Below, piece after piece: positions 17,494 to 64,000 of a stretch of DNA of 64,000 nt. The notes below the pieces were generated by a model. The model was not told the origin of the DNA. It ran no database searches and worked only from the letters and a program-made list of their open reading frames with translations. A program made the position numbers and the translations under genes. Each line of letters starts with the position of its first letter. Positions within the stretch are counted from its first letter, which is position 1. Source of the stretch: Aminobacter carboxidus (lineage in GTDB: Bacteria > Pseudomonadota > Alphaproteobacteria > Rhizobiales > Rhizobiaceae); NCBI RefSeq assembly GCF_014863355.1, contig NZ_JACZEP010000011.1:1-64000 (forward strand), read 5' to 3'.

Positions 17494-17513
17494 GATCGTT
17501 CTCCGCGACGGGT

Positions 17514-23877: not shown

Positions 23878-23901
23878 TGCATCGAGAACAAGCACGATGC
23901 A
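23878..23901. promoter_or_regulatory. Second inverted repeat upstream of the secreted protein gene
   Basis: TGCATCG and CGATGCA flank 10 bases, ending 20 bases before the ATG at 23922. It could be an activation site or a leader hairpin. Confidence 0.4.
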
Positions 23902-23921
23902 CTTCAAAGCAGACGCCGACC

Positions 23922-37506: not shown

Positions 37507-37561
37507 GCGGGCAAGCTCTTTCAAACTTGTAGTTTCTGCGGAACAACCTAATATTTAAGCA

Positions 37562-38428: not shown

Positions 38429-38519
38429 GGTCTGATACGCGACGGTATCGCCCGACTGCGGTCCCTTCTTCACCTTTCTCCCCACGGCACCCCGAAACCA
38501 ACGGGTGCGGGAGGAGCAC

Positions 38520-47140: not shown

Positions 47141-47998
47141 TCATGCCGGCTCACTCGGCTCTTGCAATGACCAGCGGAAGGGTTCCCCGGAGACCCACAT
47201 CGCGTGAAGGATCACGGCGAGCTTTCGCGCGACCGCCACCTTTGCTTTTCGATAGCCGCCACGCCGGGCGATGCGCAGTCCCCAGCTCTTCAAAGCGGAG
47301 AACCGTGGGATACGCGTCAACAGCGCATTGGCTGCCTCGTAAAGGCTGCGTCGAAGAAAGTCGTCGCCTCGTTTAGACACGCGTCCTGATCTCATCGTTT
47401 CACCTGAAGCGTAGATGCGCGGTGTCAGTCCAAGATAGGCTCCGGCGCTGGACGATCGTTTGAATCGTCCCGGATCATCAATCGTTGCAACGAAGCCGAG
47501 CGCAGTGATAACGCCGACACCAGGGACCGACATCAGCCGTCTGACGACATTGTTCTGCCGCGCTATCGAGCGAACCTTCGCCTCGAGATGACGGATTTGC
47601 TCAAGGATGTTGGCACGTGCCCGCATCAGTGCTTCGACGACGGCCTGGATAGTCGGCGACGCATGGAGTTCGCCGTCGATGATTTCCTCGGCACGCTTGG
47701 CGAACCCACCAACCCGTTTGCCAAACAGGATGCCGAAGGTGCGAAGGACGCCTCTGATCTGGTTCTCCAGGTCGCAGCGGGTCCGCACGAGTTGGCTACG
47801 AGTGGCAAGGAGCGCCCGAGCTTCGTGGCTTGCCGTAGATTTTACATGGACACTCTTGCACCAGCCCGTACGAACGATCTGCGCCAGGCCGATGGCGTCG
47901 TTGCGGTCCGTCTTGGCAGGCATCATCTTCAAGGCCGCATTGGCGTGCCGAGCATCCATGCAGACGATGGGAACGCCGCGTTCCTTCAATCCATGCAA
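47141..47998 (-). pseudogene. IS110-family transposase, N-terminally truncated by IS21
   Basis: 285 residues covering the middle and C-terminal part of an IS110 transposase: MMPAKTDRNDAIGLAQIVRT (DEDD-type domain end), then the transposase_20 region LMSVPGVGVITALGFVATID and SAGAYLGLTPRIYASGETMR with SKRGDDFLRRSLYEAANALL. Intact proteins have roughly 60 more residues at the start including the first acidic residues. The break coincides with the IS21 left end at 48007. Confidence 0.8.
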
Positions 47999-48166
47999 AT
48001 TCCGAGTGATGTCGCCCCCCGATTCCGAAATGATCTCGCCCCCTCGTTCCGAGAATTAGTCGCCCCCTGATTCCGAGATGATGCCGCCCCTTGGAGGCGG
48101 TGTTTGGGCCGGGTGCTCTGCTGGTGAATGGTTCCTTCTTTTGGATTGTCCAGGGGAAGGAACGAA

Positions 48167-49713
48167 ATGCCTGCGGAGAGAGTGACCATGCGGCGTGTCC
48201 GCGAGATTTTGAGATATCGATTTGAAGAGAGCCTTGGCCACAAGGCGATCTCATACAGGGTCGGGGCTGCGCCCTCGACGGTGCGCGAGACGCTCAGGCG
48301 CGTCACGGCCGCTGGGCTGACATGGCCGCTCGGCGAGGCGGTCACGGACACGGTTCTGGAGGCAGCGCTCTACAAGGCTTCCGGAAAGAAGACGGGGCAC
48401 CGCCGCAGCGTCGAGCCGGATTGGGCGGAGATCCATCGCGAGCTGAAGCGCAAGCATGTGACGCTGCAGATCCTGTGGGACGAATACATCGAGCATCACC
48501 CCGATGGTTACCGCTATAGCCGTTTTTGTGATCTCTACAGGGGCTGGGCATCCAACCTGCCGGTGACGATGCGGCAGAACCACGCCGCCGGCGACAAACT
48601 CTTCGTCGACTATGCCGGCGACACCGTGACCGTGGTCGTCGACCGGCTCAAGGGCAAGACGCGGCAAGCGCATCTGTTCGTGGCCGTGTTGGGTGCGTCG
48701 AGCCTATCTTATGCGGAGGCGCGCTGGACCGAAACGCTGCCGGACTGGCTGGGGTGTCACGTCAATGCGCTGGAAGCGTTCGGCGGCGCGCCGGCTCTGT
48801 TGGTTCCCGACAATGCCAAGGTCGCCGTGATCAAGGCCTGCCGCTACGATCCCCAGGTCAACCGCAGCTATGCGGGGATGGCCGACCATTATGGCAGTTC
48901 GGTGCTGCCGACCCGACCACGGCGGCCGCGCGACAAGGCGAAAGTCGAGGCGGCGGTGAGGATTGTCGAGCGCTGGCTTCTGGGCCGCCTGCGCTATCGC
49001 GTCTTCCATAGCCTGGCCGAGGTCAACACGGCGATCGGTGAATTGCTTGCCGATCTGAACGATCGCCGGATGCTGCGTCGTGTCGGCTGCACGCGGCGGC
49101 AACTGTTTGAAGAGATCGATCGTCCAGCACTGCGACCCTTGCCTGCCGATCGCTATGTCTTTGCCGAATGGCGCATTCGGCGCGCCGGCCTCGACTACCA
49201 TGTCGAGATCGATCGGCACTATTACTCGGTGCCATACCGCTTTGCGCGTGAGCAGGTCGAGACGCGCATCACGGCGACCACCATCGAACTGTTCCGCAAG
49301 GGCGAGCGGATCGCCGCCCATATGCGCTCCAGCGGCAATGGCCGGCACACGACGGTGCCGGATCACATGCTTCCGCCCATCGGCCATTTGCCGATTGGAC
49401 GATCGAGCGGATTACCCGGGAAGCCTCTGCGGTCGGCCCCGATGCGGCCTTGCTGTGCCAGAAGATATTGGCGGACCGGCCGCATCCCGAGCAGGGCTTC
49501 CGCGCCTGTCTCGGCGTCATCCGGCTCGTCAAGGGCTTCGGCCGCGAGCGCGTCAATGCCGCTTGCGGCCGGGCGCTGGAGATCGGCGCCCGGACTTATG
49601 GCTCCGTCCGCTCAATCCTCGACAACCATCTCGACCGGGCGTCGTCGCCCCAGGCGACGCCTCGCGAGCCCATCGACCACCCCAATATCCGCGGCTCCCG
49701 CTATTACCACTGA
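48167..49713 (+). pseudogene. istA: IS21 transposase IstA with a one-base deletion
   Basis: Starts MPAERVTMRRVREILRYRFE with AAGGAACG upstream. The helix-turn-helix and DDE core are intact (FVDYAGDTVTVVVDRLKGKT, AEARWTETLPDWLGCHVNAL, ALLVPDNAKVAVIKACRYDP, RPRDKAKVEAAVRIVERWLL). Near 49370 one base is missing: after PDHM the frame is lost, while the next frame continues DWTIERITREASAVGPDAAL and PEQGFRACLGVIRLVKGFGR to the normal ending HPNIRGSRYYH at 49713. The expected product would be about 515 residues; as it stands the last 115 are replaced. Confidence 0.8.
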
Positions 49714-49725
49714 AAGGAAAACGAC

Positions 49726-50463
49726 ATGCTTGCACATCCTACCCTCGACCGGCTCAACGCCATGGGCTTGACCGGTATGGCCAAGGCATTCGATGAACTG
49801 GCTACAAATGCCGAGGCCGAACAGTTATCGCATGCCGAATGGCTGGGGCTGCTTCTCGAGCGGGAATGGAGTTCACGCTACGATCGCAAACTCGGTGCGC
49901 GCCTGCGCTTTGCAAAGCTGCGCCATCAGGCGACGCCTGAGGACGTGGACTATCGCGGGGAGCGCGGCCTCGATCGAACCCTGTTCCTCAAGCTCATCGC
50001 CGGCGACTGGATCGATGCCCACGACAATCTCGCCATTTGCGGCCCATCGGGCGTCGGCAAAAGTTGGCTGGCCTGTGCGCTCGGCCACAAGGCCTGCCGG
50101 GATGACCGGTCCGTTCTATACCAACGTGTCCCACGTCTGTTCGCCAATCTGGCCCTCGCCAGAGGCGACGGCCGTTATGCACGCTTGCAGCGAACCCTGG
50201 GCCGCGTTCAGCTGCTCATCCTCGATGATTGGGGCCTGGAGCCTCTCGACGATCAGGCCCGCCATGATCTCCTCGAAATCCTCGAGGATCGCTACGGCCG
50301 CCGTTCCACCATCATCACCAGTCAGCTTCCCGTGTCGGCATGGCATGACGTCATTGGAAATCCAACCTATGCCGACGCCATCCTGGACCGCCTCGTTCAC
50401 AATGCTCATCGCGTCGATCTGACGGGGGAAAGCCTGCGGCGAAAACAGACGCAAAAAACTTGA
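49726..50463 (+). CDS. istB: IS21 ATPase IstB
   Basis: 245 residues, complete. Walker A GPSGVGKSWLACALGHKACR near 109, Walker B LLILDDWGLEPLDDQARHDL near 166 and sensor RRSTIITSQLPVSAWHDVIG. Begins MLAHPTLDRLNAMGLTGMAK with GAAAGGAAAAC upstream. IstB is the DnaA/DnaC-like ATPase that assists IstA in target selection. It lies 12 bases after the istA stop. Confidence 0.9.
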   Translation: MLAHPTLDRLNAMGLTGMAKAFDELATNAEAEQLSHAEWLGLLLEREWSSRYDRKLGARLRFAKLRHQATPEDVDYRGERGLDRTLFLKLIAGDWIDAHDNLAICGPSGVGKSWLACALGHKACRDDRSVLYQRVPRLFANLALARGDGRYARLQRTLGRVQLLILDDWGLEPLDDQARHDLLEILEDRYGRRSTIITSQLPVSAWHDVIGNPTYADAILDRLVHNAHRVDLTGESLRRKQTQKT

Positions 50464-50575
50464 CACACGACACATACGAAATGACAACAATCAATGCCAG
50501 CAGAGCCCTAGCCCCAGGGGGCGAGATCATCTCGGAATCCGGGGGCGCAATCATGTCGGAACAAAGGGGCGGCTT

Positions 50576-51259
50576 CGTCGGAATCGGCACATCCGGATCC
50601 TGATCCGGGCCGACGGTCACTATTCTAGCCCGCAGATCATCGACTGGTGCCGCGCCAACGATGTCGACTTCATCCTCGGTGTGGCGCCCACCACGACCCT
50701 GCGCAAGCATGTCGCGGACCTGGAAGCCCGCACGACGGCGCGCTTTGAAGCGTCACCGAAGACGAACAAGGTCCGCAGGTTCAAGGAGTTCCTGGAGGGG
50801 GCCGCCAGTTGGAGCCGCGTCGAGCGCATCATCGCGCGGGTCGAGGTCGGCGCCCAAGGTGCTGACACTCGCTTCATCGTCACCAACCTCGCCGGTGGCA
50901 AGGCCAAGGCGCTCTACGAGGATGTCTACTGCCGGCGCGGAGCGGCCGAGAACCACATCAAGTCCTGGAAGACGCATCTCGCCGCCGACCGCACCTCCTG
51001 CACAAGAGCGACGGCCAACCAGTTCCGGCTGTTCCTGCATGCCGGCGCCTACTGGCTCATGTGGGGCCTGCGCGCTGCGATGCCGAAACGCTCCAGCTTC
51101 GCTGTCGCGCAATTCGACACGCTGCGTTTGCGCCTCATCAAGATCGCTGCGCGGGTGGTCGAGATGAAGACGCAAATCCGCCTGCACCTGCCGACATCCT
51201 GCCCCGACCAACGCATCCTGCGCATCGTCCTCGATCGCATTCCGCGGCTCGCTACATAA
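50576..51259 (+). pseudogene. IS1380-family transposase, C-terminal remnant
   Basis: The frame reads RHIRILIRADGHYSSPQIID from about 50588 and continues with WCRANDVDFILGVAPTTTLR, YEDVYCRRGAAENHIKSWKT (the YREKT-type DDE glutamate region) and FRLFLHAGAYWLMWGLRAAM to the stop at 51259. This is the last half of a roughly 450-residue IS1380 transposase. The N-terminal half is missing where the IS21 element lies. The following 215 bases (51260-51474) contain a GGGGCG/CGCCCC hairpin and no gene. Confidence 0.75.
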
Positions 51260-51474
51260 CCATGGGGCGCAGACGCCCCGAAACGAACCCGCCGACCTCA
51301 ACTCGCAAACCCCCGCCTGCCATCACGACGGATCACCGCCGGCGCCTGATGAGCATTGTGAAAACGCACCCAACGGCGACCACATCGCCGATACAGGCCG
51401 CCAAAAAACTCATCGCCGTGCATCAACGCGGCTAGCTGGCGGTACCCTTTTTCTTCAACTCGAACATGTTCGGT

Positions 51475-53085
51475 TCAGTCGACCAAGACCCCGCCGGCTC
51501 GTAGCATCGCTTCCGGCGTATCGACATCGATCCCCGCGCCGGCGCCAATCTCGATATTGACTATATCGACCAGACCAGACTCAACCACGTGACGTGCGCC
51601 GATGTCGCCGGTCAGCTTGCGTATCTCGGGGAAGAGGACTCGTGGCAGCAAGACCGGATTTCCTCGCTTGCCGCCATGTGTTGCGCGAACAACCGTCCTG
51701 CCTTCATGCTTGTGAAAGCTTGCGATCAGTCGATCGATGTCGGCCGCAGACACGCTCGGCATGTCGGCCAGCATGATCAACACACCATCTGCATCGTCGG
51801 GCAACGCGGCAAACCCGGCCTTGATCGAACTGGCAAGCCCATCGGCATGATGCGGATTTTCGACAAGCTCCATGTCCACGCCTTCAAGTGCCTGTCGCAC
51901 CCTTTCCGACATGTGACCAACAACGCCGAAAACACCCGAAACCTTGCTTGCACATACGAGCGACGCCATGCGGCGGACCAGGGGAACGCCGTCGAAATCC
52001 GCGAGCAGCTTGTTCTTCGCTCCCATGCGGCTCGACCGGCCCGCCGCGAGCAGGATCGCATAGACCTTTCTTTGCCGCGACGGCACCGCCGGTTCGCGCG
52101 GCTGCGGCCGCGCGGGGATTTCCATGAGAAGACCCCCAACACCCATGCCGGCGATCATGTCATTGTCGACGTCGATGCCGGCTATCAGCCGATCGAGCAC
52201 CCAGTCGAAGCCGTTGAGCTTGGGGCTTCGCGCGCATCCTGGCGCGCCAAGCACCGGCTTTTCGCCGAGCCGGCCGGTGACGATGAGATTTCCGGGATCG
52301 ACGGGCATGCCGGCGCGATGCACTTCGCCGCCGGCGAACCGGATGGCGGCGGGAATGACATCGTCGAAATCGCACATCGCGGAAGCGCCGAATACGATGA
52401 GCATGTCGCTGTGGACCGAGAGGTTCCCGATCGCTTCCGCCACCGCATGGCTGTTGTGCGGCACGCGCTTCTCGGCAACGATGCGGCTCGCGGAGCGTGC
52501 AAGTCGCTCCTGGGTTATCCGTGCCGTCTTGTCGAGCACGCTATCCTTCGTCCCCGGCAGCACGGTCTGCACAAGTGCAACTTTCTTCGGTTGAAACGCA
52601 TGGACGGCGAAGGCTTCACGGTCTCGTAGCTGCGACCGCGCCTCTCGGATCAATGGCGCGGATACCGCGAAGGGAATGATCTTCACGGTCGCGACCATCC
52701 GGCTCTTTTCGACTGCGGTATAGTCGGCCAGCGTCGCGATGGTGATCGACGGGTCGATGCGGTTGAGCGTGTCGATCAGAGTCTTGTCGACGGTGAAGAC
52801 CCCATCCCGGCTGGCGTGCAGGTTGACGCGGCCCGTCGCCGCGGGTTTGGCCTCGACGCCGGAGGTCTCCAACGCCATGACGATGGCCGACGCGGCTGCG
52901 TCTTCGTCGAGGTCATCCCGATCGAGCACCGCGGCGATGACCTCTTCCACACCGGCTTCACCGAGCATGGCGATGTCGCAGGCCGTCAGGCGATGCGCCT
53001 TGCGCAGACGGACCGCACCGGCGACGATCGCATGGGCCAGGATCGCGCCCTCGGCGTCGATGACGCAAACCGGGCCGAACTTCAC
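51475..53085 (-). CDS. Molybdopterin-binding/nucleotidyltransferase fusion (MocA-like)
   Basis: 536 residues. The N-terminal 330 residues resemble a MoeA/MogA-type molybdopterin-binding domain (MLIVFGASAMCDFDDVIPAA and HRAGMPVDPGNLIVTGRLGE); the C-terminal 190 form a nucleotidyltransferase domain with YAILLAAGRSSRMGAKNKLL and GVLIMLADMPSVSAADIDRL. The MocA-type enzymes attach CMP to molybdopterin, and CO dehydrogenase needs that cytosine dinucleotide cofactor. GTG 53085 is chosen because GGGAG precedes it and it overlaps the XdhC stop (GTGA). It is the last gene of the cox cluster and is next to the IS1380 remnant. Confidence 0.75.
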   Translation of the reverse strand: MKFGPVCVIDAEGAILAHAIVAGAVRLRKAHRLTACDIAMLGEAGVEEVIAAVLDRDDLDEDAAASAIVMALETSGVEAKPAATGRVNLHASRDGVFTVDKTLIDTLNRIDPSITIATLADYTAVEKSRMVATVKIIPFAVSAPLIREARSQLRDREAFAVHAFQPKKVALVQTVLPGTKDSVLDKTARITQERLARSASRIVAEKRVPHNSHAVAEAIGNLSVHSDMLIVFGASAMCDFDDVIPAAIRFAGGEVHRAGMPVDPGNLIVTGRLGEKPVLGAPGCARSPKLNGFDWVLDRLIAGIDVDNDMIAGMGVGGLLMEIPARPQPREPAVPSRQRKVYAILLAAGRSSRMGAKNKLLADFDGVPLVRRMASLVCASKVSGVFGVVGHMSERVRQALEGVDMELVENPHHADGLASSIKAGFAALPDDADGVLIMLADMPSVSAADIDRLIASFHKHEGRTVVRATHGGKRGNPVLLPRVLFPEIRKLTGDIGARHVVESGLVDIVNIEIGAGAGIDVDTPEAMLRAGGVLVD

Positions 53086-53792
53086 GCCGCTTTCTCCCTT
53101 TCCCCGTCGCATCCTCGCGAACGCAACGCCTTGATCACCTGTGCGAGCACCGCGACCGCGATCTCGGCCGGGCTCGCGGCTCCGATATCGAGGCCGATCG
53201 GTGCGTGAATCCGCCTTACCTGATCGGATGACGCACCAAGTGTTCGCAGACGCTCGACGCGCCTGGCGTGGGTTTTGGTGCTTCCCAGCGCACCGATGTA
53301 GAAGCAGCCCGCGTCCAGCGCCGCCATCAGCGGGAAGTCATCGATCTTGGGATCATGCGTCAGCGCCGCGACTGCGGTGAAGGCGTCCAACGGCTGCGTC
53401 TTCACAACGTCCTCCGGCCATTCGGCGTGAAGCGGGACACCGGGAAAACGATCCGGCGTGGCGAAAGCCGTGCGTGGATCGATGATTTCCACGTCATATC
53501 CGGCGACCTTGGCGATCGGGGCCAGAGCCTGGCTGATATGCACCGCGCCAATGACGACCAGGCGCGGCGCCGGGACATGGACGTTGAGGAAGTACTTCCG
53601 GCCAACGGCCTCAACTACGCCCGACCTGCCGGTCCGAACGGCGGTTTCGATGGCTTCGCCCAGCACATGGTCGGCGACAATGTCGCCGCTGCACACCAGG
53701 CGATTGCCTCCATCTCCGAGATCGGTCACAAGGACGACCGCCCGGCGTTGGCGGCGTTCGCGGTTCAGACGCTCGAGGACAAGCTGGTCCAT
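53082..53792 (-). CDS. XdhC-family protein, Rossmann-domain part
   Basis: 236 residues. After a short N-terminal XdhC segment it contains the NAD-like fold PRLVVIGAVHISQALAPIAK, then DVVKTQPLDAFTAVAALTHD and a C-terminal GASSDQVRRIHAPIGLDIGA. XdhC-type chaperones insert the matured, sulfurated molybdenum cofactor into hydroxylases. Here the usual two-domain protein is split into this gene and the one at 53798, five bases apart; such paired genes are known in rhizobia. Confidence 0.8.
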   Translation of the reverse strand: MDQLVLERLNRERRQRRAVVLVTDLGDGGNRLVCSGDIVADHVLGEAIETAVRTGRSGVVEAVGRKYFLNVHVPAPRLVVIGAVHISQALAPIAKVAGYDVEIIDPRTAFATPDRFPGVPLHAEWPEDVVKTQPLDAFTAVAALTHDPKIDDFPLMAALDAGCFYIGALGSTKTHARRVERLRTLGASSDQVRRIHAPIGLDIGAASPAEIAVAVLAQVIKALRSRGCDGEREKAA

Positions 53793-53797
53793 GGCGC

Positions 53798-54136
53798 TCA
53801 GCCCAGTGGCTCCACGTACACCTTGATCCGGCCTCCGCAGGATAGTCCGACCTGCCAGGCCGTCTCATCGGCCACCCCGAATTCCAGCATGCGTGGCTTG
53901 CTGCTGGCGATGACGTCGGCCGCCTCGGAAACCACCGTGCCTTCGACGCAACCGCCCGAAACCGAACCGTGGAAATTGCCATCGGCATCGATCACGAGAT
54001 GGCTGCCGACGGGACGCGGGGCGGAGCCCCACGTTTCGACAACGGTGGCAAGGGCGACGTGCCGCCCTTCCTTCATCCAGCTTTCCGCGATCGACAACGG
54101 ATCGCGGTGCTGATTGATCAGTTGGGCGTTTTCCAT
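53798..54136 (-). CDS. XdhC/CoxI-type N-terminal domain protein
   Basis: 112 residues containing only the XdhC_CoxI domain: VALATVVETWGSAPRPVGSH, GSVSGGCVEGTVVSEAADVI and GLSCGGRIKVYVEPLG with its conserved cysteines. It is the front half of the split chaperone. In the form I cluster of Oligotropha the equivalent place is held by coxI. Confidence 0.8.
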   Translation of the reverse strand: MENAQLINQHRDPLSIAESWMKEGRHVALATVVETWGSAPRPVGSHLVIDADGNFHGSVSGGCVEGTVVSEAADVIASSKPRMLEFGVADETAWQVGLSCGGRIKVYVEPLG

Positions 54137-54198
54137 GATGGAACTTTCTCCAAACCGAGTTGCCTGGGTGGCGACGGGTGTCGGTTCGGCGGAAACCT

Positions 54199-54663
54199 TC
54201 AGCTTTCCGGTGCCAGAGTCGGAGAGCGCAATTTCTCGCCGAAATTGTTGAAGAATTGCGTCGCGAGCTTGCGCGCGGTCGAATCGATCAGCCGCCCCCC
54301 GAGCTGGGCGATCTTGCCGCCAACGTCCGCCTTGACTGTATAGGACAAGATGGTCGCGTCCGGCCCGTCTTCCGCCAGCGAGACGTCGGCGCCGCCCTTG
54401 GCGAAGCCGGCAATCCCGCCCTTGCCCTCGCCTTGGATCGTATAGGAATGCGGCGGATTGAGATTGATCAGCTCCACCGCCCCCTCGAAGCGGGCCTTGA
54501 TCGGGCCGATCCTCAGCACCACTGTGGCGGCCATCTCAGTATCGGAACTCTTGTCGAGGGTCTCGCATCCCGGTATGGCCTGGCGCAGGATTTCCGCGTC
54601 GTTCAGTGCGAGCCAGACTGTTCCGATCGGAGCTTCGATGCGCTCCGTGCCTGTCATGTCCAT
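54199..54663 (-). CDS. coxG: CoxG-type SRPBCC protein
   Basis: 154 residues: MTGTERIEAPIGTVWLALND, IPGCETLDKSSDTEMAATVV and GFAKGGADVSLAEDGPDATI, the SRPBCC fold of CoxG. CoxG is associated with CO dehydrogenase at the membrane. This copy is short and ends in a polar tail (GEKLRSPTLAPES) with no hydrophobic anchor helix, unlike longer CoxG proteins. It starts two bases after the coxF stop. Confidence 0.8.
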   Translation of the reverse strand: MDMTGTERIEAPIGTVWLALNDAEILRQAIPGCETLDKSSDTEMAATVVLRIGPIKARFEGAVELINLNPPHSYTIQGEGKGGIAGFAKGGADVSLAEDGPDATILSYTVKADVGGKIAQLGGRLIDSTARKLATQFFNNFGEKLRSPTLAPES

Positions 54664-54665
54664 GA

Positions 54666-55514
54666 TTAGTTCCCCTTTCTGGTGAGTGATTCTGTTCCTT
54701 GGGCACGTTGCCCTTGGCGACGGGCAAGCGTGATTTCCGCGAGGATCGAGAGTGCGATCTCCTCCGGCGTAATCGCGCCGAGATCGAGCCCGGCCGGCGC
54801 CTTCACGCTATCAACCACCGTTCCGGCGATGCCCTCGCCGAGGAGCTTTTCGCGCAACGAAGCCATCTTGCGGCGGCTGCCGACGAAGCCGCGATAGTCG
54901 GCCTCGAACGCGAGGGCCGCTTTCAACGCCGCTTCATCGCCCTTGCCTTGTGTGGAGATGACGACAAAGCGGCGTACAGTCTGCGGTACGTCGAATGCAA
55001 AGCCGTCCACCAGCCGATCGACCTCTGGGGCAGTCAACAAGTCGCCAAGCGGCGCTGCAAGCATGACGTGGAAGCCGAGCGGCTTGGCTTGCTCGGCGAG
55101 CGCAAGCGCGACGGGGCTGGCTCCTAGCACCAGCAGGGCCGGGCGCGGCATCACCGGCTCGACGAAAATGTCCATGGTTCCCTGGCTCGGGCACATGTTC
55201 TTTGCGAACTTCACGCCGTCGCGATCGTCGCCTGGCTTGACGCCAAGCTCTGCGAGAAGATCCTCCGGCTGGATCGAGATCAGTCGCGACTGACCGTCGG
55301 CCAGCGCCTCGCGGGCGGCCTTCAGCGTGGCGCCGCGCGCACAGCCGCCGCCGATCCAGCCGGCCTCGATCCTGCCATCCGGCCGGATGATGGCCTTGGC
55401 GCCCGCTTTTGCCGCCGTGACCGAGACGGTACGCACCACCGTCGCCAGCGCAAATGGCTCCTCCGCCGCCTTCAGGCGGGAGACGAGGTCAAGAACATCG
55501 ACATGGGCGTTCAT
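54666..55514 (-). CDS. coxF: CO dehydrogenase maturation protein CoxF (XdhC family)
   Basis: 282 residues with both XdhC parts: FALATVVRTVSVTAAKAGAK and GWIGGGCARGATLKAAREAL at the N-terminus, then PALLVLGASPVALALAEQAK and DYRGFVGSRRKMASLREKLL. Start 55514 follows GGAGGCGACC, 12 bases past the coxE stop. In Oligotropha carboxidovorans CoxF acts late in building the copper-molybdenum active site, together with CoxD and CoxE. Confidence 0.85.
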   Translation of the reverse strand: MNAHVDVLDLVSRLKAAEEPFALATVVRTVSVTAAKAGAKAIIRPDGRIEAGWIGGGCARGATLKAAREALADGQSRLISIQPEDLLAELGVKPGDDRDGVKFAKNMCPSQGTMDIFVEPVMPRPALLVLGASPVALALAEQAKPLGFHVMLAAPLGDLLTAPEVDRLVDGFAFDVPQTVRRFVVISTQGKGDEAALKAALAFEADYRGFVGSRRKMASLREKLLGEGIAGTVVDSVKAPAGLDLGAITPEEIALSILAEITLARRQGQRAQGTESLTRKGN

Positions 55515-55525
55515 GGTCGCCTCCG

Positions 55526-56734
55526 TCACAGTTTCGCCAGATAGGGTTCGAGCGCCGCCAGGCTTTTCAGCGTATGCGCCGGCGCGAACAGGTCGACATG
55601 AGGCATTGCCGCCTTGATGCCGGCGGCCTCCGGCGCGTAGCCATCCCAGCCCATCATCGGGTTGAGCCAGACGATGCGGCGGCAGCGGCGGCCGAGCTGC
55701 TCCATCTCGCGGCCAAGAAGGGCCGCGTCACCGGTCTCGTAGCCGTCCGAGACGATCATCACGCAGGTGCGCGAATGGATGACGCGCGCCGCATGCCAGC
55801 GGTTGAAAGTGGCGAGGCTCTCGCCGATCTTCGTGCCGCCGCCGGCACCCTGCGCCATCATCGACAGCCGGTCGAGCGCGCGCTGCGCGTCGCGTTCCTT
55901 CATCGCGTCGGAGACATGGACGAGACGCGTGTGGAACAGGAACGCCTCAGCCTCGCGGAATTCGTCGAGCACGCCGTGGATGAAGCGCAGGAAGACGCCC
56001 GTATACATGTTCATCGAGCCGGACGCGTCGAGCAGCATGACGAGGCGAAGCGGCTTTTCCTTTCGCTGCCGATGCACCAGCGCGATCGGCACGCCGCCAT
56101 TGCTGATATTGCTATGAATCGTGCGGCGCAGATCGAGGCGGTATCCCCGGCGCCGGGCCAGATCGCGACGGGTCAATCGCGTGCGCATCGTCTTCGCCAG
56201 CCTGGCCGCGATGGCGTGGGCTTCCTCCATCTGTGCGCGGTCGGCGATTTTTCGGAAGTCCGTTTCCGCGAGGTTTTCAGTGCGGGAAGCGCCTTCCGCG
56301 CGGCCCTCTCCGGATCGTTCGCTCTCGTCCGCCCCGCCGCCTGAGGGAAGCTGGTCGAGCACAGGACGTCCGTTCGAGTTGGCCGCCTTGCCTTGAAGCT
56401 CGGCGACGTTCGGGTCTGCGCCCGCCTTGGCAGAACCAGCGGCCGCCGAGCGCGAGCGGACATGTTTGCCCAGCCAGAACGCATCGAACAGACCGTCAAA
56501 CTTTTCCCAGTCGGACTTTTGGGTCGAGAAGAGGTGCTTGAATGCGGAGCGCAGCAGTCCCGGCTTTTGCGCGTAGCCGGACGCCATCAACGTGGTGGCG
56601 TCCTGCCCTTCACGCAGACCTACCGCGAACGCGTTGTCGCGCAAGGTCTTCAGGAACGCGGCAAGCTTGGTGGAAACGAGACGGGAGACCTCGTTCAGCT
56701 CATCGAGAGGGGGAGGCGTGCCGCAGCAGCTCAT
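55526..56734 (-). CDS. coxE: CO dehydrogenase maturation protein CoxE (VWA domain)
   Basis: 402 residues. A glycine/serine/acidic linker spans about 93-150, and the C-terminal von Willebrand A domain has its metal site DASGSMN at 236-242, with threonine in HVSDAMKERD nearby and GTKIGESLATFNRWHAARVI. CoxE is needed for copper insertion into CO dehydrogenase and pairs with the CoxD ATPase. It begins MSCCGTPPPLDELNEVSRLV and its start overlaps the last base of coxD. It is about the usual CoxE length. Confidence 0.85.
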   Translation of the reverse strand: MSCCGTPPPLDELNEVSRLVSTKLAAFLKTLRDNAFAVGLREGQDATTLMASGYAQKPGLLRSAFKHLFSTQKSDWEKFDGLFDAFWLGKHVRSRSAAAGSAKAGADPNVAELQGKAANSNGRPVLDQLPSGGGADESERSGEGRAEGASRTENLAETDFRKIADRAQMEEAHAIAARLAKTMRTRLTRRDLARRRGYRLDLRRTIHSNISNGGVPIALVHRQRKEKPLRLVMLLDASGSMNMYTGVFLRFIHGVLDEFREAEAFLFHTRLVHVSDAMKERDAQRALDRLSMMAQGAGGGTKIGESLATFNRWHAARVIHSRTCVMIVSDGYETGDAALLGREMEQLGRRCRRIVWLNPMMGWDGYAPEAAGIKAAMPHVDLFAPAHTLKSLAALEPYLAKL

Positions 56735-57612
56735 CAGGCGACCTTTCCCAGCAGGCGGTCGGTGACTTCGCGGGCCATGCGCATCTTGTCTTCATGGGTC
56801 TTCAGGAGACACATCAGCGTCGCATGCACGATCTCGGGCCGGTCGTGCAGATCGGCGACGTCGAGACCGACAAGAGCCGCCGCCCAGTCGAGCGTTTCCG
56901 CCACGCCCGGCACCTTGCGCAGATCCTCCTTGCGAATCTTCTCTACCATCCTCGCGATCTGCAACGACAGCGAGGCGGTCGCGCCGGGAATCCGCGACGC
57001 GACGATGCGCGCCTCGCGGTCGACGTCGGGGTAGTCGACATAGTGGTAGAGGCAGCGACGCCGCAACGCGTCGGAAAGCTCGCGCGTGCCGTTCGAGGTC
57101 AGCACCACATGGGGAATGCTCTTCGCCTCCACGGTGCCGAGCTCGGGGATCGACACCTGCCAGTCGGAAAGCAGCTCCAGGAGAAAAGCCTCGAACTCCT
57201 CGTCGGCGCGGTCGACCTCGTCGATCAGCAGCACCGGCGGCGTCTTGCGCCGGATGGCAGCCAGCAGCGGCCGCTCCAGCAGGTATTTTTCGGAGAAGAT
57301 GCGTTCTTCGATGTCGTCCGGCGCGCGGCCCTGATGCGCCTGGATGGCGAGAAGCTGGCGCTGGTAGTTCCACTCATAGAGCGCGGCCGACTGGTCGAGC
57401 CCTTCATAGCATTGCAGGCGGATCAACTCCGTGCCGTGGACGGCGGCCAGCGCCTTGGCCACCTCGGTCTTGCCGACGCCTGCTTCGCCTTCCAGCAGAA
57501 GCGGGCGCTTCAGCAACTGCATGATCGAGATTGCAGTCGCCAGATCCGGGTCGGCGATGTAGCCGGCATCGGCGAGGCGGGCGGCGATCTCGTCACGGGA
57601 AAGAGCGGTCAT
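56734..57612 (-). CDS. coxD: CO dehydrogenase maturation ATPase CoxD (MoxR family)
   Basis: 292 residues of a MoxR-type AAA+ ATPase: Walker A GEAGVGKT at 42-49, Walker B LLIDEVD at 128-134, sensor 1 HVVLTSNGTRELSDALRRRC and an arginine finger in that stretch. CoxD is a partly unfolding chaperone for CoxL, required for sulfuration and copper loading of the active site. It starts 10 bases after the coxL stop. Confidence 0.9.
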   Translation of the reverse strand: MTALSRDEIAARLADAGYIADPDLATAISIMQLLKRPLLLEGEAGVGKTEVAKALAAVHGTELIRLQCYEGLDQSAALYEWNYQRQLLAIQAHQGRAPDDIEERIFSEKYLLERPLLAAIRRKTPPVLLIDEVDRADEEFEAFLLELLSDWQVSIPELGTVEAKSIPHVVLTSNGTRELSDALRRRCLYHYVDYPDVDREARIVASRIPGATASLSLQIARMVEKIRKEDLRKVPGVAETLDWAAALVGLDVADLHDRPEIVHATLMCLLKTHEDKMRMAREVTDRLLGKVA

Positions 57613-57621
57613 CGATCGTTC

Positions 57622-60042
57622 CTATCCTACGACGCCCAGCGCCTTGGCCGCCTGCCAGTTGCGCCAGTAATCGTGCGGCATCTGGATGTGCGTCGAGCCG
57701 AGGAAGGAGAAGGCGTCGTTGACGGCGTTGGAGAAGCAGGGCACGCCGCCGACATTCGGGCTCTCGCCGACGCCCTTGGCGCCGATCGGATGGTGCGGCG
57801 ACGGCGTGACGGTGAAGTCGGTCTCCCATTTCGGCGTCTCCACCGCAGTCGGGATGAAGAAGTCCACGAACGAGCCGGACATCACATTGCCGGTGTCGTC
57901 GTAGCGGATTTCCTGCCCCATCGCGATCGCGAAGGCTTCCGTCAACCCGCCATGCACCTGCCCCTCGATGATCATCGGGTTGATGCGGGTCCCGCAATCG
58001 TCGAGCGCATAGAAGCGCCGGACCTTGTAGACACCCGTGTCGACGTCGATGTCCATCACGCAGAGATAGGCCCCGAACGGATAGGTCATGTTGGGCGGGT
58101 CGTAGTAGCTGACCGCCTCCAGTCCCGGCTCCATGCCGGGCGGCGGCGCGTTGTAGGCGATCCAGCAGATGTCCTTCATGCCGAGGACCTTTTCCGGCAG
58201 GCCCTTCACGCGGAAACCGTCGATGTCCCATTCGAGATCGTCCTCGTGAACTTCGAGCTTGTAGGCCGCGATCATCTGCGCCTTGGCCTTGATCTTGCGC
58301 GCGGCCATGGCGATGGCCGCACCCGCAACCGGCGTCGAGCGCGAGCCGTAAGTTCCCAAACCATAGGGAGCCGTATCGGTGTTGCCTTCCTCCACCGTGA
58401 TGTCGTCGGCCGGAATGCCTATCTCGGTGGCGATGATCTGTGCCCAGGTCGTCTCATGGCCCTGGCCCTGGCTCTTGGTGCCGACGCGTGCGACGCCGGA
58501 CCCGGTCGGATGCAGCCTGATCTCGCAGCTGTCGAACATGGCGATGCCAAGAATGTCGCAGTTCTTCGACGGCCCGGCGCCGACGATCTCGGTGAAGAAG
58601 GAGACGCCGAGCCCCATGATCTCCCGCGTCTCGCCGCGCCTGAAGGCCTCGCGCTTCTCGGCCTGCTCTTTCCTCAGCCCGGCATAGTCGACCTTCTCCA
58701 TCATCTGCTTCATGGCGGTGTGGTAGTCGCCAGAATCATATTCCCAGCCGAGTGCCGACTGGTACGGGAACTGCTCTGCCTTGATGAAGTTCTTCAGCCT
58801 GAGTTCGGCCGGGTCCATGCCGAGCTTCTGAGCGAGGATGTCCATCGCCCGCTCGATGCAGTAGGCCGCCTCCGTCACCCGGAACGAGCAGCGATAGGCA
58901 ACGCCGCCCGGCGCCTTGTTGGTGTAGACGCCGTCGACAGCGAGATGCGCGACGGGGAAATCGTACGAGCCGGTGACGATGTTCATGAAGCCGGCCGGCC
59001 ATTTCGACGGATCGGCGCAGGCGTCGAACGCGCCGTGGTCGGCCAGCACATGCACACGCAGGCCGGTGACCTTGCCTTCCTTCGTGGCGGCGATCTCGGT
59101 CGTCATGTGATAGTCGCGGGCGAACGACGTCGACGTCAGGTTCTCGATGCGGTCCTCGACCCATTTCACAGGCTTGCCGGTAACGATCGAGGCCACCGCC
59201 GAACAAACATAACCTGGATAGACCCCAACCTTGTTACCAAAGCCACCGCCGATGTCGGGCGCGATGACATGAATCTTGTGCTCGGGGATCTTGGCGATTA
59301 GCGCCACCACGGTGCGCACGACATGTGGCGCCTGGAACGTGCCATAGATGGTCAATTCACCCTTGATCTTGTCGAAGGAGCAGAGGGACTGACAGGTCTC
59401 CAGCGGCGACGGATGCGTGCGGTGGTAGGAGATCATCTCCTTGATTGTCACGTCCGCTTTACGGAAGGCGGCGTCGGTCAAGTCCTTATCGCCGACCGTC
59501 CACTCGAAGATGTGGTTGTGATGTTTGCGCGGGCCGTGCGCCCCGGTGTTCTTGCCGGTCAGATCCTCGCGCAATACCGGCGCGCCGGGATCCATCGCCG
59601 TGAACGGGTCGATCTGCGGCTCCAGCTGTTCGTATTCCACCTCGACGGCGTTGATGCCGTCGTCGGCCGTATAGCGGTCGGTGGCGACGACGAAGGCGAC
59701 CTCCTGGTTCTGGAACAGCACCTTGCCGTCGGCCAGCACCATCTGCACGTCGCCGGCCAGCGTCGGCATCCAGGCGAGGTTGACGGTCTTCAGGGTCTCG
59801 GCCGTGATGACAGCCAGCACGCCCGGTACCTTCAGCGCCTTCTCGGTGTTGATCGATTTCACCCGCGCATGGGCGTAGGGCGAGCGGACGAAGTCGCCGT
59901 GCAGCATGCCGGGCAGCTTCACATCATCGACGTATTGGCCCCGCCCTTGCGTGAAGCGGATGTCCTCGACTCGCTTCCTCTTGCAGCCCATGCCTTCCAG
60001 TTTTGCTTCGCGCTGTTCCCGCGTGGGAGTCATGTCGTTCAT
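57622..60042 (-). CDS. coxL: Form I aerobic CO dehydrogenase large subunit
   Basis: 806 residues. The active-site loop reads AYRCSFR at 382-388 (58879-58899), with the cysteine that carries the copper-sulfur bridge at 385; this separates true (form I) CO dehydrogenase from form II proteins, which have AYRGAGR. Other molybdopterin motifs: [40 protein letters not shown] and the catalytic glutamate in [13 protein letters not shown]. Length is that of the Oligotropha enzyme (809). The start overlaps the coxS stop (ATGA). It oxidises CO to carbon dioxide and passes electrons to CoxS. Confidence 0.93.
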
Positions 60043-60551
60043 TCCGCTGCCTCCTGGAATTCCGTGCCGTTGATCTTGGCGGCCGCGTACTGGATCGCCC
60101 TGACAATGTTCTGGTAGCCGGTGCAGCGGCAGAGATTGCCGGCGATACCGAAGCGGATCTCCTCCTCGGTCGGGTCAGGGTTCTCCTGCAGCAGCCGGTG
60201 CGCGCGGGTGATCATGCCTGGCGTGCAGAAGCCGCATTGCAGCCCATGCATCTGCCGGAAGCCCTCCTGCAGCGCCGACAGGGTGCCGTCGGCATTGGCG
60301 ATGCCCTCGATCGTGGTGATCTCGGAGCCGTCGGCCTGCACGGCGAACATCGTGCAGCTCTTCACTGACAATCCGTCGATGTCGACGGTGCAGGCGCCGC
60401 AATGCGTCGTCTCGCAACCGATATGGGTGCCGGTTAGCTGCAAATTCTCGCGGATGAAGTGGACGAGCAGGGTGCGCGGCTCGACAAGGCCGTCGACCTC
60501 TACGCCGTTGACCTTCATGCTCACCTGGGTCTTTTTTGCCTGGGTTGCCAT
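60039..60551 (-). CDS. coxS: CO dehydrogenase small (2Fe-2S) subunit
   Basis: 170 residues with two iron-sulfur clusters: Cys 46, 51, 54 and 66 ([10 protein letters not shown]) and Cys 106, 109, 141 and 143 (CGFCTPG, CRCTGY). The ATG at 60551 has GGAGGAAAT, whereas one 12 codons upstream does not. It carries electrons from the molybdenum-copper site to the FAD of CoxM. Confidence 0.92.
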
Positions 60552-60564
60552 CTGGATTTCCTCC

Positions 60565-61428
60565 TTAGGCCGCTCTGGCCGCGGCACGTTTCAGCGCTCG
60601 CTCGACCATGATGCCGCCGACATGTTTGCGGTATTCAACCGGACCTCGCCCGTCGCCTGCCGGCGACATGATCGTGATGGCGGCTTCCGCCGCCCGCTTC
60701 AGGGACGCGTCGTCCAGTACCGTACCGATCACGGCCCGCGCAGCGTCCTCGGCGAGTAGCGGCGTTTCGGACAGGTTGGTGAGACCGATCGAGCAGGTGG
60801 CCACCTTGCCGCCGCTCATGGTCAGCACGACGGCCGCAGCGGCGGTTGCATAGTCGCCGATCTTGCGCTTCAGTTTTTCATACGCGTAGCCATGGCCGGG
60901 AGGCTGCGCTGGCACGGAAACCGCGGTGAGGATTTCGCCCGGCTCCAGCGACGTGAAATAGGCGCCCTGATAGAAGTCGCCTGCAGCCTCCTCTCGCACG
61001 CCGTCTGGTCCTTCGAGGCGATAGGTTGCGCCCAGCGTCATCATCAGCGCCGGCATGTCGTTGCCGGGATCGCCATTCGCCACATTGCCACCGATCGTGC
61101 CGCGATAGCGCACCTGCGGGTCGGCGATAAGCAGTGCCGTCTCTCGCAGGATGGGCAGGGAGGATGCGATCACGTCGGAGGCAAGCAGTTCGTGCTGTGT
61201 GGTCATCGCGCCGATGACGATGTTGTCGCCTTCCTGGCGAATGCCTTTCAGTCCCTCGACGGCGTGAAGGTCGATCAGATGCTCGGGTGTCGCCAGCCGC
61301 AGCTTCATCATCGGGATGAGGCTGTGACCGCCCGCGAGCGGACGTGCTTCTTCGCCAAGGTCCGAGAGCAGCTTGATGGCGTCGGCCATCGAAGCCGGAC
61401 GATGATAGGTAAAGTGTCCCGGTATCAT
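60565..61428 (-). CDS. coxM: CO dehydrogenase medium (FAD-binding) subunit
   Basis: 287 residues: [23 protein letters not shown] motifs [14 protein letters not shown] near 33 and [19 protein letters not shown] near 110, and the C-terminal CO dehydrogenase flavoprotein domain ([19 protein letters not shown]). ATG 61428 follows GGGAGGAAGC. It is the first structural gene; the MSL order is that of all form I operons. The 172-base upstream region (61429-61600) should hold the operon promoter. Confidence 0.92.
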
Positions 61429-61600
61429 GCTTCCTCCCTTCATCCTTGCGTCTTACAGGCACGGATGTTGGGTGGATGCTGTCGCGGTCATCCTATGTCA
61501 GGCAAGCAGATGGACGGCTAAGTCTCACCAATGCTGGGCTTTCGCACTAAACACCGGTATTCACGCACGAATTGTGACAGCAATCCTGACCTGTCGGCGA

Positions 61601-62830
61601 TCATGCCGGATCGACGTTCCGACGGGTAAGGCCCAACCGGGCTCTGAGCTCCGCTGTTCTGGCACGGCTTACGGGAACCAGGTGCCGAACCGGCCCATCC
61701 AGTTCGACCACCGCTCCCTCGCCTTCCTTGCGGACGAAAGCGACATGCGAGATGGCAATGATGTGGCTGCGGTGAACCCGCATGAAGAAGGCCGGATCGA
61801 GATTCGCTTCCGCTTCCGAAATGGACCAGGGCGACATGCGTTCGCGGCTGCCATCATGGACCATCGAGTAGTGGGTATTGGCCGTCACGCTCCTGATATC
61901 CGCCATGTCGATGAAGTGTACTCCGTCGGCGCCTTCAAGGGGTATGCGTGGCGAAGGCACGGGCCGCGGCTGGCCCAGTCCGGCGAGGGGCAGTGGCCTG
62001 CGGCGCAACGGGATTGTCGTATCGTGGTCAGAGGCGGCGTCTTCTACGGCGATCGCGGTGGCTGCGTCCTGCCCTGGAGCCGCGGGAATCGCTCCCGAAA
62101 GCGCCAGACCATCGTGCGGGCGCGATTCCGGAATCAGGAAAAGCAGGAAGCCGGCGGCGATCAGGAAGCACAACAGAGACACCACCAGTGCGAGTGCCTG
62201 TGGAGAGGCGACAAATCCGTCCGCGCCATGATGAGCCAGCTCCAGTGCCGGTTGAAAACGCATCCCGTACATTGCGGTGTAGTGCATGCCGGAGACAGCG
62301 ATGCCGAAGGCAACAGCGCTCAACGCCAGTCGGGTTCCGACCTGCCGCGCCAGGAAGATGCGGAGCCCTCCATAGGCCGTTCCAACCGCGATCAGGGCTG
62401 CAAGCATGATCATGGAGTGCTGGTGCTCGATATGAAACGCGCCAGCCAATCCGTGTATTCCGACATAGTGCATCGAGACGATGCCCACGCCTAAAAGCAG
62501 CGCTGAGACAGTCACTCGTCCTTCGGAGGGCTCACCTATGCTGACGAAAAAAAGCGAAATGCCGACCACCAATGCGCAGATCAGGAACGATATGATTGTC
62601 GGAAGCACGAGGTAGGTGGTGTCATCGGGGATCGGCGCGGCAAGCATGCCGACGAAATGCATCGTCCATATGCCGATCGCCAGAAAGCCGGCGGCCCAGG
62701 CAAGAAGTTTGCGACGATTCACGCCCTGCGCGGTGCGAACTCGCGCGGCCAGACCGAAGCCAGTATATCCTCCCGCGATCGCGATCACCACCGAGAGCGC
62801 GACCAGGTAGGGGTTGTGCCCTACAAACAT
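61601..62830 (-). CDS. coxC: CoxC-type membrane sensor-regulator (MHYT + LytTR)
   Basis: 409 residues. The N-terminal 235 residues form about seven membrane helices with three copies of the MHYT motif (MHFVGM at 57, MHYVGI at 120, MHYTAM at 182), proposed to bind copper and sense CO or other diatomic gases. A proline-rich linker leads to a LytTR DNA-binding domain from about 300 (HFIDMADIRSVTANTHYSMV, MRVHRSHIIAISHVAFVRKE). ATG 62830 (MFVGHNPYLV) begins the membrane part; the much longer open frame upstream is not coding-like. It probably controls coxMSLDEFG, as its Oligotropha counterpart is thought to. Confidence 0.87.
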   Translation of the reverse strand: MFVGHNPYLVALSVVIAIAGGYTGFGLAARVRTAQGVNRRKLLAWAAGFLAIGIWTMHFVGMLAAPIPDDTTYLVLPTIISFLICALVVGISLFFVSIGEPSEGRVTVSALLLGVGIVSMHYVGIHGLAGAFHIEHQHSMIMLAALIAVGTAYGGLRIFLARQVGTRLALSAVAFGIAVSGMHYTAMYGMRFQPALELAHHGADGFVASPQALALVVSLLCFLIAAGFLLFLIPESRPHDGLALSGAIPAAPGQDAATAIAVEDAASDHDTTIPLRRRPLPLAGLGQPRPVPSPRIPLEGADGVHFIDMADIRSVTANTHYSMVHDGSRERMSPWSISEAEANLDPAFFMRVHRSHIIAISHVAFVRKEGEGAVVELDGPVRHLVPVSRARTAELRARLGLTRRNVDPA

Positions 62831-63128
62831 ATCGGTACCGGCGCGCGAGACGTCCTCCCGGCCGCGCGCTCTCTCCCTGCCGGGTATTTTACATGTGGTT
62901 CGTGTGGATTGACAATGCGCAGCCTGAAGGCCCCGGCGATGCGCGCTGTCATAGCCAACGAAAGAAGAGATTTCCTCGCGGCGGCGCGCGCCCGAAGGAA
63001 GTTGTGATCTCGAGCGAACGCCATGTGCCACAACGTCGACGTACGAACCGCCGCGGATACGGCGGTAGTCGGTCCGGTCTTCCATCGCGACAGTCGCTTC
63101 GACGGCACCATGGGAAGAACCATTGTCT
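62831..63128. promoter_or_regulatory. Intergenic region upstream of coxC
   Basis: 298 bases between the phosphatase stop and coxC. No gene is recognised. It includes a lower-GC part near 62888-62925 (TTTTACATGTGG, ATTGACAATG) that may be the coxC promoter. Confidence 0.35.
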
Positions 63129-63884
63129 TCAATCGCGTGTCGGCCGCTGAGGCCGGGCAAGCTGCGGCAGGCGTTCTCGGCCGAACATCCATATCGCTCC
63201 GACAGCCGCGGGGCATTCTTCGAGGCTGGCGATTGTGACGGCGGCCTTCGCGGCCTCCTCCGAGCTTCGCATATATCCGTTGAGAACGATGACAGCCGGC
63301 AGGCCGGCATTGTGCGCTGCCTCGACGTCGATACCGCTGTCGCCGACCATCACGGCGTCGCCGGGCTCCACGCCGAGCCGGTCGAGGGCGCGCAGAAGCA
63401 TGTCGGGCGCCGGCTTGGGATTCATCCCGGGACTGCCGCCGATCACCGCGCCGAGAAAGGGTGTCAGCGCGAAATGATCGAGAATGCGCTCGGTAGCGGC
63501 CTGCTGCTTGTTGGTCACGACGCCCATGCGAAAGCCTTTCGCGTGGAGCAACCGGATTGCCGCGCGCGCTCCCGGCATCGGCCTGGTGAACGTCGTGAGG
63601 TGACCGCTGTAAATATCGAGCATCGCGGCATAGCCCGCATCGAGCTCTTCGCCGACAAGCGGATGCCCGCAACTGTCGAAGGCGCGTTCGACAAGCATTT
63701 TGATGCCGTTGCCGATCATTCCCCGTACCCGCTCCAGGGAGAGTGACCCTAGCTCGTATTGTCGAAGCAGGATGTTGATCGACGCTCGCAGATCAGGCGC
63801 TGAATCAATCAGCGTGCCGTCGAGGTCGAACAGCACGGCGCGGGGGCGTTCCGGGACATTTCCGAGCGGACGGGCCGGCGTCAT
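63129..63884 (-). CDS. gph: HAD-family phosphatase, probable phosphoglycolate phosphatase
   Basis: 251 residues with the HAD nucleophile motif VLFDLDGTLIDSAPDLRASI near 17, motif II VVTNKQQAATERIL, lysine region GMNPKPAPDMLLRALDRLG and motif IV GDSGIDVEAAHNAGLPAV. The cap sequence and DSAPDL start fit Gph/CbbZ, which removes phosphoglycolate made by Rubisco oxygenase activity or DNA repair. ATG 63884 follows GGAAAGAGCG and overlaps the upstream stop (ATGA). Next to a form I cox cluster it may belong to a cbb operon outside the window, but it could be an unlinked housekeeping-type gene. Confidence 0.75.
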   Translation of the reverse strand: MTPARPLGNVPERPRAVLFDLDGTLIDSAPDLRASINILLRQYELGSLSLERVRGMIGNGIKMLVERAFDSCGHPLVGEELDAGYAAMLDIYSGHLTTFTRPMPGARAAIRLLHAKGFRMGVVTNKQQAATERILDHFALTPFLGAVIGGSPGMNPKPAPDMLLRALDRLGVEPGDAVMVGDSGIDVEAAHNAGLPAVIVLNGYMRSSEEAAKAAVTIASLEECPAAVGAIWMFGRERLPQLARPQRPTRD

Positions 63885-64000
63885 GCCCGCTCTTTCCATT
63901 TTATCGAGCAGCCTATCGAGCCGATCTGACCGTCCGGTCCATGCCCGCAATTGGCGATCTGGGCCATCGCTTGGTAGAGATCGCGACGAAGATCCGACGG
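63881..64000 (-). CDS. Thioredoxin-family protein, C-terminal end (cut by window edge)
   Basis: The reverse strand is open from the window end to a TGA at 63881, giving 39 residues ending SIGCSIKWKERA. A GCxIKWK ending is typical of thioredoxin-fold/AhpC-like redoxins. The stop overlaps the start of the phosphatase gene, so the two are co-transcribed. The catalytic part lies outside the window. Confidence 0.5.
   Translation of the reverse strand, partial: PSDLRRDLYQAMAQIANCGHGPDGQIGSIGCSIKWKERA

Follow-up and report, generated by a model that had tools for sequence, protein, structure and literature searches.

Among the described systems closest to the locus reported here are plasmid pHCG3 of Oligotropha (Afipia) carboxidovorans OM5, a circle of 133,057 bp with a form I cox cluster and a Calvin (cbb) operon, and the cox genes of Aminobacter carboxidus (A. 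lissarensis) DSM 1086. The latter strain has been shown to grow on carbon monoxide (CO), to have CO dehydrogenase activity and to possess form I plus form II cox genes (PMC7645674). According to the available portions of PMC8235418, DSM 1086 is the only one of 17 Aminobacter strains with RuBisCO, and three of the strains carry form I cox: DSM 1086 and DSM 17454 on putative plasmids (contig 16, of 138.7 kb, in DSM 17454) and AP02 probably on the chromosome.

Analysed here was a stretch of 64,000 nucleotides from A. carboxidus (the window), which comprises bases 1-64000 of contig NZ_JACZEP010000011.1 (C3; 132,333 bp) in a genome of 6.29 Mb and 31 contigs. At 51475-62830 it holds a cox cluster in which every named gene lies on the minus strand of C3. 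The source genome is almost certainly that of DSM 1086, a soil bacterium and known carboxydotroph, whose cox genes were reportedly placed on a plasmid by older hybridization work. It agrees with the published DSM 1086 genome, assembled with k-mers of up to 127, in its 31 contigs and its form I and form II cox genes (PMC7645674), and with the findings on that strain in its RuBisCO genes (PMC8235418). As the cluster and putative plasmid of this strain are published, the finding is already known: PMC7645674 and the available portions of PMC8235418 describe coxMSL with accessory genes, the AYxCSFR motif and a putative plasmid, almost certainly the same locus, with RuBisCO about 19 genes from cox by locus-tag numbers. 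These texts describe no closed circle, no cbb operon beside cox and no copies in another genus; a literature search at title and abstract level, in which Artuso 2021 (Syst Appl Microbiol 44:126199) and Kropp 2025 were not covered, found nothing on a closed cox-cbb plasmid of DSM 1086 or on a shared block. Added here are the closure of the circle by sequence, the cbb operon near cox, a 99.2% identical cox block in another genus and copies of the neighbouring XdhC/MocA genes on Shinella plasmids. Taken as a whole, the data very probably describe the complete form I CO dehydrogenase operon of, almost certainly, DSM 1086, carried as a mobile block on a 132,206-bp circular plasmid with cbb, repABC, VirB/VirD4 and relaxase genes.

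The cox operon and its plasmid

The following cox genes were recognized:

61601-62830, minus strand: coxC, MHYT sensor and LytTR DNA-binding protein (PF03707 and PF04397 over cut-off)
60565-61443, minus strand: coxM, flavin adenine dinucleotide (FAD) subunit (67% to pHCG3 coxM)
60039-60587, minus strand: coxS, [2Fe-2S] subunit (77% to pHCG3 coxS)
57622-60042, minus strand: coxL, Mo-Cu subunit of form I CO dehydrogenase (TIGR02416, AYRCSFR, tree)
56734-57612, minus strand: coxD, AAA+ ATPase, active-site maturation (AAA_5 over cut-off; 74% to pHCG3)
55526-56734, minus strand: coxE, VWA protein (PF05762, 252.8 bits; 59% to pHCG3)
54666-55529, minus strand: coxF, XdhC/CoxI-family maturation protein (PF13478 and PF02625 over cut-off; 60% to pHCG3 coxF)
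54199-54663, minus strand: coxG, 154 amino acids, without hydrophobic tail (PF06240, 124.7 bits)

The frame of coxC is open as far as 63310, its likely start being the methionine at 62830. The gene order coxM-S-L followed by D-E-F, one of the marks of form I Cox, is present, and the active-site loop of CoxL reads AYRCSFR, in agreement with the form I pattern AYxCSFR. CoxL scored 1450.8 bits against TIGR02416, the curated equivalog model of form I (cut-off 991.15). A quick maximum-likelihood tree was built from 101 rows, of which 96 were form I sequences and 5 were paralogues from the source genome itself; YRCSFR occurred in 96/96 form I rows and AYRCSFR in 92 of these. The CoxL of the window grouped with form I, inside a clade of 41 rows with 100 in the Shimodaira-Hasegawa-like approximate likelihood ratio test (SH-aLRT), apart from the 5 paralogues; that of pHCG3 fell into a separate clade of 16 rows (support 96), and that of AP02, the other Aminobacter, was not paired with the CoxL of the window, the separating forks having support of only 90-93. 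Assignment of CoxL to form II or to another molybdenum hydroxylase was ruled out by TIGR02416 and the tree. By these markers the cluster is a complete form I Mo-Cu CO dehydrogenase operon, and its enzyme is predicted to oxidize CO. An initial annotation of the window had pointed to the AYRCSFR motif and the order coxC-M-S-L-D-E-F-G with cofactor genes, both of which were found as described, and had made its interpretation depend on CoxL falling within the form I clade, as it did by model and tree alike.

In Oligotropha, CoxD, CoxE and CoxF take part in the assembly of the CuSMo site; a mutant in coxG had regular enzyme with a generation time of 149 h vs 21 h, read by the authors as lost membrane recruitment (available portion of PMC4240915). 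According to work cited in a survey of 2026, CoxG hands electrons to the quinone pool (available portion of PMC13240472). By homology, CoxD, E and F would build the CuSMo centre here as well, and CoxG would help to bring the enzyme to the quinone pool. CoxC would presumably sense and activate, CoxMSL would oxidize CO (CO + H2O -> CO2 + 2 electrons + 2 protons), the XdhC/MocA module described below would presumably make and insert the cytosine-dinucleotide molybdenum cofactor, and the resulting CO2 could enter the cbb operon of the same plasmid.

The two ends of C3 are an exact 127-bp repeat, and with one copy removed the circle measures 132,206 bp; the only other match to the repeat in the genome was 73% over 82 bases on contig C27. 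A 313-residue DUF2493 gene spans the join (at residue 98) and is 95.2% identical over 313/313 residues to a gene at the same backbone position of plasmid pMDW2 of Aminobacter sp. MDW-2. RepA, RepB and RepC lie at contig 97.4-101.3 kb, VirB4, VirB6, VirB8, VirB9 (CagX), VirB10, VirB11 and VirD4 at 108.9-120.8 kb and a MobA/VirD2-type relaxase at 123.0-125.5 kb. A further part of the backbone lies in the window:

1-18781, strand not applicable: backbone (strawberry-notch helicase, toprim, DUF1419, ParB, DUF1173), which runs into the transfer region across the circle join

C3 is thus most likely a closed circular plasmid, and from its gene content it would be able to transfer itself; circle closure, repABC, VirB/VirD4 and relaxase bear out the plasmid-type backbone proposed earlier. 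pMDW2 is a backbone sister with repABC, VirB/VirD4 and relaxase in the same order. Its DNA identity to C3 is 87% over 14.9 kb in the VirB region, 82-84% in the helicase/ParB region, 73-87% across backbone and transfer genes and 67-70% in the rep genes, and its matches cover 46,102 bases of C3, transposase matches counted. It is typed conjugative (MOBP, MPF_T) and differs from C3 in its cargo; neither CO dehydrogenase nor RuBisCO appears in the incomplete gene table given for it in PLSDB.

The shared block and the XdhC/MocA module

Two blocks of the cluster recur on plasmids of other genera, and their facing ends both lie in the XdhC N-domain gene, the first of a three-gene module downstream of coxG:

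54026-63171, minus strand: 9,146-bp block in common with plasmid contig C38 of genome G564 (blastn 99.224%, 71 mismatches, no gaps)
53798-54136, minus strand: XdhC N-domain (XdhC_CoxI) protein, 112 amino acids (PF02625 positions 1-68 of 68)
53082-53792, minus strand: XdhC Rossmann-domain protein, 236 amino acids (PF13478 positions 1-125 of 125)
51475-53112, minus strand: MoCF-MocA fusion, likely cofactor cytidylyltransferase (PF12804, 125.6 bits)
51474-53903, minus strand: 2,430-bp block in common with Shinella plasmids pfSHIWSC3 and pgSHIWSD5 (98.5% identity)

The larger block holds all eight cox genes, and G564 belongs to another genus. Between the two copies the eight genes differ by 52 synonymous and 15 non-synonymous codon changes without stops; CoxL of G564 was reported as 100% identical (1889.7 vs 1891 bits), with one non-synonymous change, and coxC is 99.6% identical at the amino acid level. 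The mismatches of the block are clustered, 42 of the 71 in 54000-55500 and 16 in 58500-59000. Elsewhere, G564:C38 (202,920 bp) matches the backbone of C3 with 85-92% DNA identity in the helicase/ParB region, 88.7% in the VirB region, 77-91% in lesser stretches and 67-71% in the rep genes (RepA/B/C proteins 53/32/60%). With 99.224% in the block vs 77-92% in the backbone stretches, the block is far younger than the split of the backbones. A search for cbbL in G564, which is rated 99% complete, gave no match at 1e-50. These data suggest a recent joint transfer of the cox genes, but not of cbb, between related plasmids belonging to two genera; the direction and means of this movement we infer.

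One edge of the block lies within the XdhC N-domain gene, where G564 continues into a tyrosine recombinase (Phage_integrase positions 3-100 of 172); as this domain is cut at the edge, the block broke into a tyrosine-recombinase gene. In C3 the second edge falls at the end of the cbbZ-like gene. G564 encodes a TniA-type transposase and TniB about 0.5 kb from its copy of the block, whereas in C3 their relatives are about 10.5 kb away. The C3 tniA/tniB pair (73714-76199) is situated between cox and cbb, and its relatives of 46-51% amino acid identity adjoin coxC in G564. A LysR gene and its neighbour (window 22830-24725) are 90.7% identical to G564:C38 74509-76406, 1.4 kb from the cox block there and about 29 kb from it here.

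Form I coxL was detected in 2/10 Aminobacter genomes, the window's own included, and in 41/297 sampled genomes of the family (24/109 genera); cbbL was detected in 1/10 Aminobacter genomes (the window's own) and in 93/397 sampled genomes of the order. The region is therefore not fixed in all chromosomes of the genus; had it been fixed, this would have spoken against the transferability of CO oxidation suggested earlier. That suggestion gains support from the plasmid with transfer genes and the 99.2% cox block in another genus.

The Shinella block comprises mocA, the XdhC Rossmann-domain gene and part of the XdhC N-domain gene; on both plasmids it lies near transposon genes and tra genes, cox not adjoining. 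A Mu-type transposase and TniQ are encoded near it. C3 has the arrangement unbroken, while G564 and Shinella each hold one part, so the joined state would be the older. The initial annotation had described the module as a split XdhC/CoxI: the two-gene XdhC is present, but it is rather a separate module than a broken CoxI. Its role presumably lies in the supply and insertion of the cytosine-dinucleotide cofactor. That the three genes are chance neighbours outside the CO dehydrogenase system is possible, if somewhat doubtful. In a survey of 92 loci or locus pieces, many cut short and some overlapping, both XdhC parts stood beside cox only in L027 (plasmid pBN2, 45-46%), L017 (pHCG3) had a 30% match to one XdhC part, and MocA stood beside cox only in L070 (41%); the two Shinella plasmids with mocA and the XdhC Rossmann-domain gene apart from cox point the same way. 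Against chance, the module is on the same strand as cox and starts 62 bp after coxG, its intact XdhC N-domain gene bridges the broken ends of both partial copies found elsewhere, and CO dehydrogenase needs the cytosine dinucleotide form of the molybdenum cofactor.

For the movement of the cox block, recombination between plasmids within one cell, rather than transposition, is quite possible. C3 and G564:C38 share a backbone family, the clustered mismatches fit patchwise exchange, and in neither C3 nor G564 were the two block edges, compared over 150 bases on either side, linked by a repeat longer than 9 bases (the search did not extend to imperfect repeats). A transposon with clear end repeats was accordingly not found as the cox carrier, and transposition is not demonstrated. 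Homologous flanks of the kind expected from recombination are missing, however, since 1 kb beyond each edge in G564 gave no match in C3, and the different distances of tniA/tniB from the block likewise speak against it. Contamination or a mixed assembly as the source of the 99.2% match is very unlikely: G564 is a draft genome of about 70 contigs, but the block lies in the interior of a contig of 202,920 bp, the matching backbone stretches of which are 8-23% different from C3, and its 71 differences are clustered. It is likewise very unlikely that C3 is chromosomal or linear and circular in appearance only. The assembly is a draft from short reads, but the end repeat (127) is as long as the largest k-mer used in the published assembly of DSM 1086 (PMC7645674), the repeat has no other close match, the join-spanning gene is whole and matches pMDW2, and in the available portion of PMC8235418 the authors also named the contig a putative plasmid.

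A complete form I operon on a circular plasmid, with cox genes that recently moved as a block between related plasmids, remains the preferred explanation. Several points weigh against it or its parts: the absence of edge-joining repeats; the single search on which the lack of cbbL in G564 is based; the quick CoxL tree, with its long outgroup branches and support below 95 for the position of the window inside the 41-row clade; the scores of MocA (TIGR03310, 131.9 bits, under the cut-off of 186.45) and MoCF_biosynth (22.8 bits, under the cut-off of 26.6); circularity, which is deduced from sequence; and the genome size of 6,287,532 bases vs 6,291,275 published for DSM 1086, the strain name being one that we infer.

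Insertion sequences and other neighbouring genes

The flanks of the cluster contain the following elements:

About 46880-47995, minus strand: IS110-type element (PF02371, PF01548)
48007-50580, plus strand: IS21-type element with istA and istB (PF22483, PF01695, end repeats)
50590-51440, plus strand: DDE_Tnp_1_4 transposase remnant (PF13701 positions 246-434 of 435)
63129-64000, on to about 64850 of the contig, minus strand: cbbZ-like HAD gene, part of a likely second cbb operon-end remnant

Insertion sequences beside cox had been pointed out in the initial annotation and are represented by the first three elements. The IS110-type element has a 91.7% match over 88% of the query in a Rhizobium plasmid, and the IS21-type element has imperfect end repeats (48007-48044 / 50516-50553, 89% complementary). 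The remnant, with its C-terminal transposase part at 50681-51259, is of a type we take to be IS1380. Adjoining coxC, the second remnant consists of a cbbE fragment (83 amino acids, 81% to the intact cbbE), a thioredoxin-like gene and the cbbZ-like gene, in the same order as in genome G218. The HAD gene at 63129-63950 had been considered as a chromosomal gph that would mark a chromosomal site; this was rejected, as it resembles a cbb operon-end remnant on a plasmid.

At 38505-42819 the window holds a second molybdenum hydroxylase in which a CoxG domain is fused to the end of the large subunit (TIGR02416, 443 bits, below cut-off), with an FAD-subunit gene (PF00941) and an FeS-subunit-like open reading frame (ORF) 45% identical to pHCG3 coxS. 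Its neighbours are an AraC regulator on one side and an AMP-binding enzyme on the other, and a BenE transporter is encoded at a greater distance. At the junction of backbone and cargo (18838-22793), a Tn3-type transposase gene is overlapped by a DDE_5 insertion sequence transposase gene. An AbiEi/AbiEii-like toxin-antitoxin pair at C3 65243-67182 had Pfam matches barely over cut-off; the gene tables of pMDW2 and pHCG3 also include AbiEi/AbiEii-like genes.

Comparison with described carboxydotrophy plasmids

Beyond the window, cbbR and cbbF-P-T-G-K-A-L-S-X-E-Z-Y occupy contig 77.0-90.4 kb, 14 kb from cox. Pfam support was obtained for 12/13 cbb genes, cbbX being assigned by 70% identity to pHCG3 alone; the gene letters are in part presumed. 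The order on C3 is that of pHCG3, where the operon ends X-E and is followed by two HAD genes. The nearest CbbL in the search of the order was that of G218 (96%), a genome whose best CoxL-like protein was only 40% identical. Among 9 genomes with a near CbbL, a form I-like CoxL was present in 1, at 74%. As the nearest kin of cox and cbb thus differ, the two were brought together, and a single origin of both is not supported. Nor are they a common combination on plasmids: in a listing of 19 plasmid rows with CoxL >54%, of which OM4 (H7) and Nonomuraea (H18, a chromosome-sized record) were left out of the cbbL test, cbbL was found in 2/17, namely pHCG3 and pBN2.

The contrasts with Oligotropha listed in the initial annotation are usual in the clade of the window. 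CoxG is short and without an anchor, as described, but carries little weight as a special feature: among 58 loci with coxG located after coxF, a hydrophobic tail (mean hydropathy >=1.6 over 19 residues) was present in 13, just one of them (L059) from the window's clade. L024 and L106 scored marginally under the threshold (1.57 and 1.51), and two rows were poor (L055, doubtful reading frame; L073, gene cut by the contig end). The lack of coxB, coxH and coxK holds for the whole of C3 as far as tested: with tblastn of ORFs of at least 60 amino acids against pHCG3 (best segment only, E 1e-8), no C3 ORF matched pHCG3 26001-26966, 36724-37924 or 39606-40496, which we take to be coxB, coxH and coxK, the record itself not stating so. 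Matches to these proxies were likewise absent from all cox loci searched save that of pHCG3, many loci ending <10 kb from coxL. A coxI-like gene was present in pHCG3 and, at 30%, in L027 (pBN2) among the cox loci searched.

Plasmid pShin-03 of Shinella sp. HZN7 has the same order coxC-M-S-L-D-E-F-G and a CoxL of 91.6% identity, but it is a 409-kb plasmid typed non-mobilizable, gave no cbbL match and has an ABC transporter gene after coxG, where C3 has the XdhC/MocA module. pHCG3 is close to C3 in size, and the cox and cbb proteins of the two are 39-81% identical. Its transfer system is Trb/TraA whereas that of C3 is VirB, with Trb-VirB matches of only 25-36%, and RepA/B/C are only 49/34/29% identical, so that by this test the backbones are not homologous. 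The hydrogenase genes of pHCG3 (56-77 kb) were matched by no C3 ORF at E 1e-8, and its CoxL belongs to a different subclade.

Form I cox and a Calvin operon thus occur together on two plasmids, and with pBN2 perhaps on three, that are unlike in backbone or CoxL clade. This suggests that a plasmid can pass on carboxydotrophy in one piece. The copy of the cassette in another genus, with its 99.2% identity, indicates that cox moved recently, and the related plasmid pair offers a test case for the transfer of CO oxidation. We tentatively propose, as a view that may well prove too far-reaching, that a self-transmissible plasmid assembled independently of pHCG3 carries all that a heterotroph needs to become, by a single transfer, an autotroph living on CO, and that its cox operon, as a 9-kb cassette, is currently making its way through the conjugative plasmids of several genera in the family. 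By predicted gene content, C3 is a carboxydotrophy plasmid like pHCG3, with cox and a complete cbb operon; it differs from pHCG3 in backbone and in CoxL subclade, and hydrogenase genes were not detected on it.

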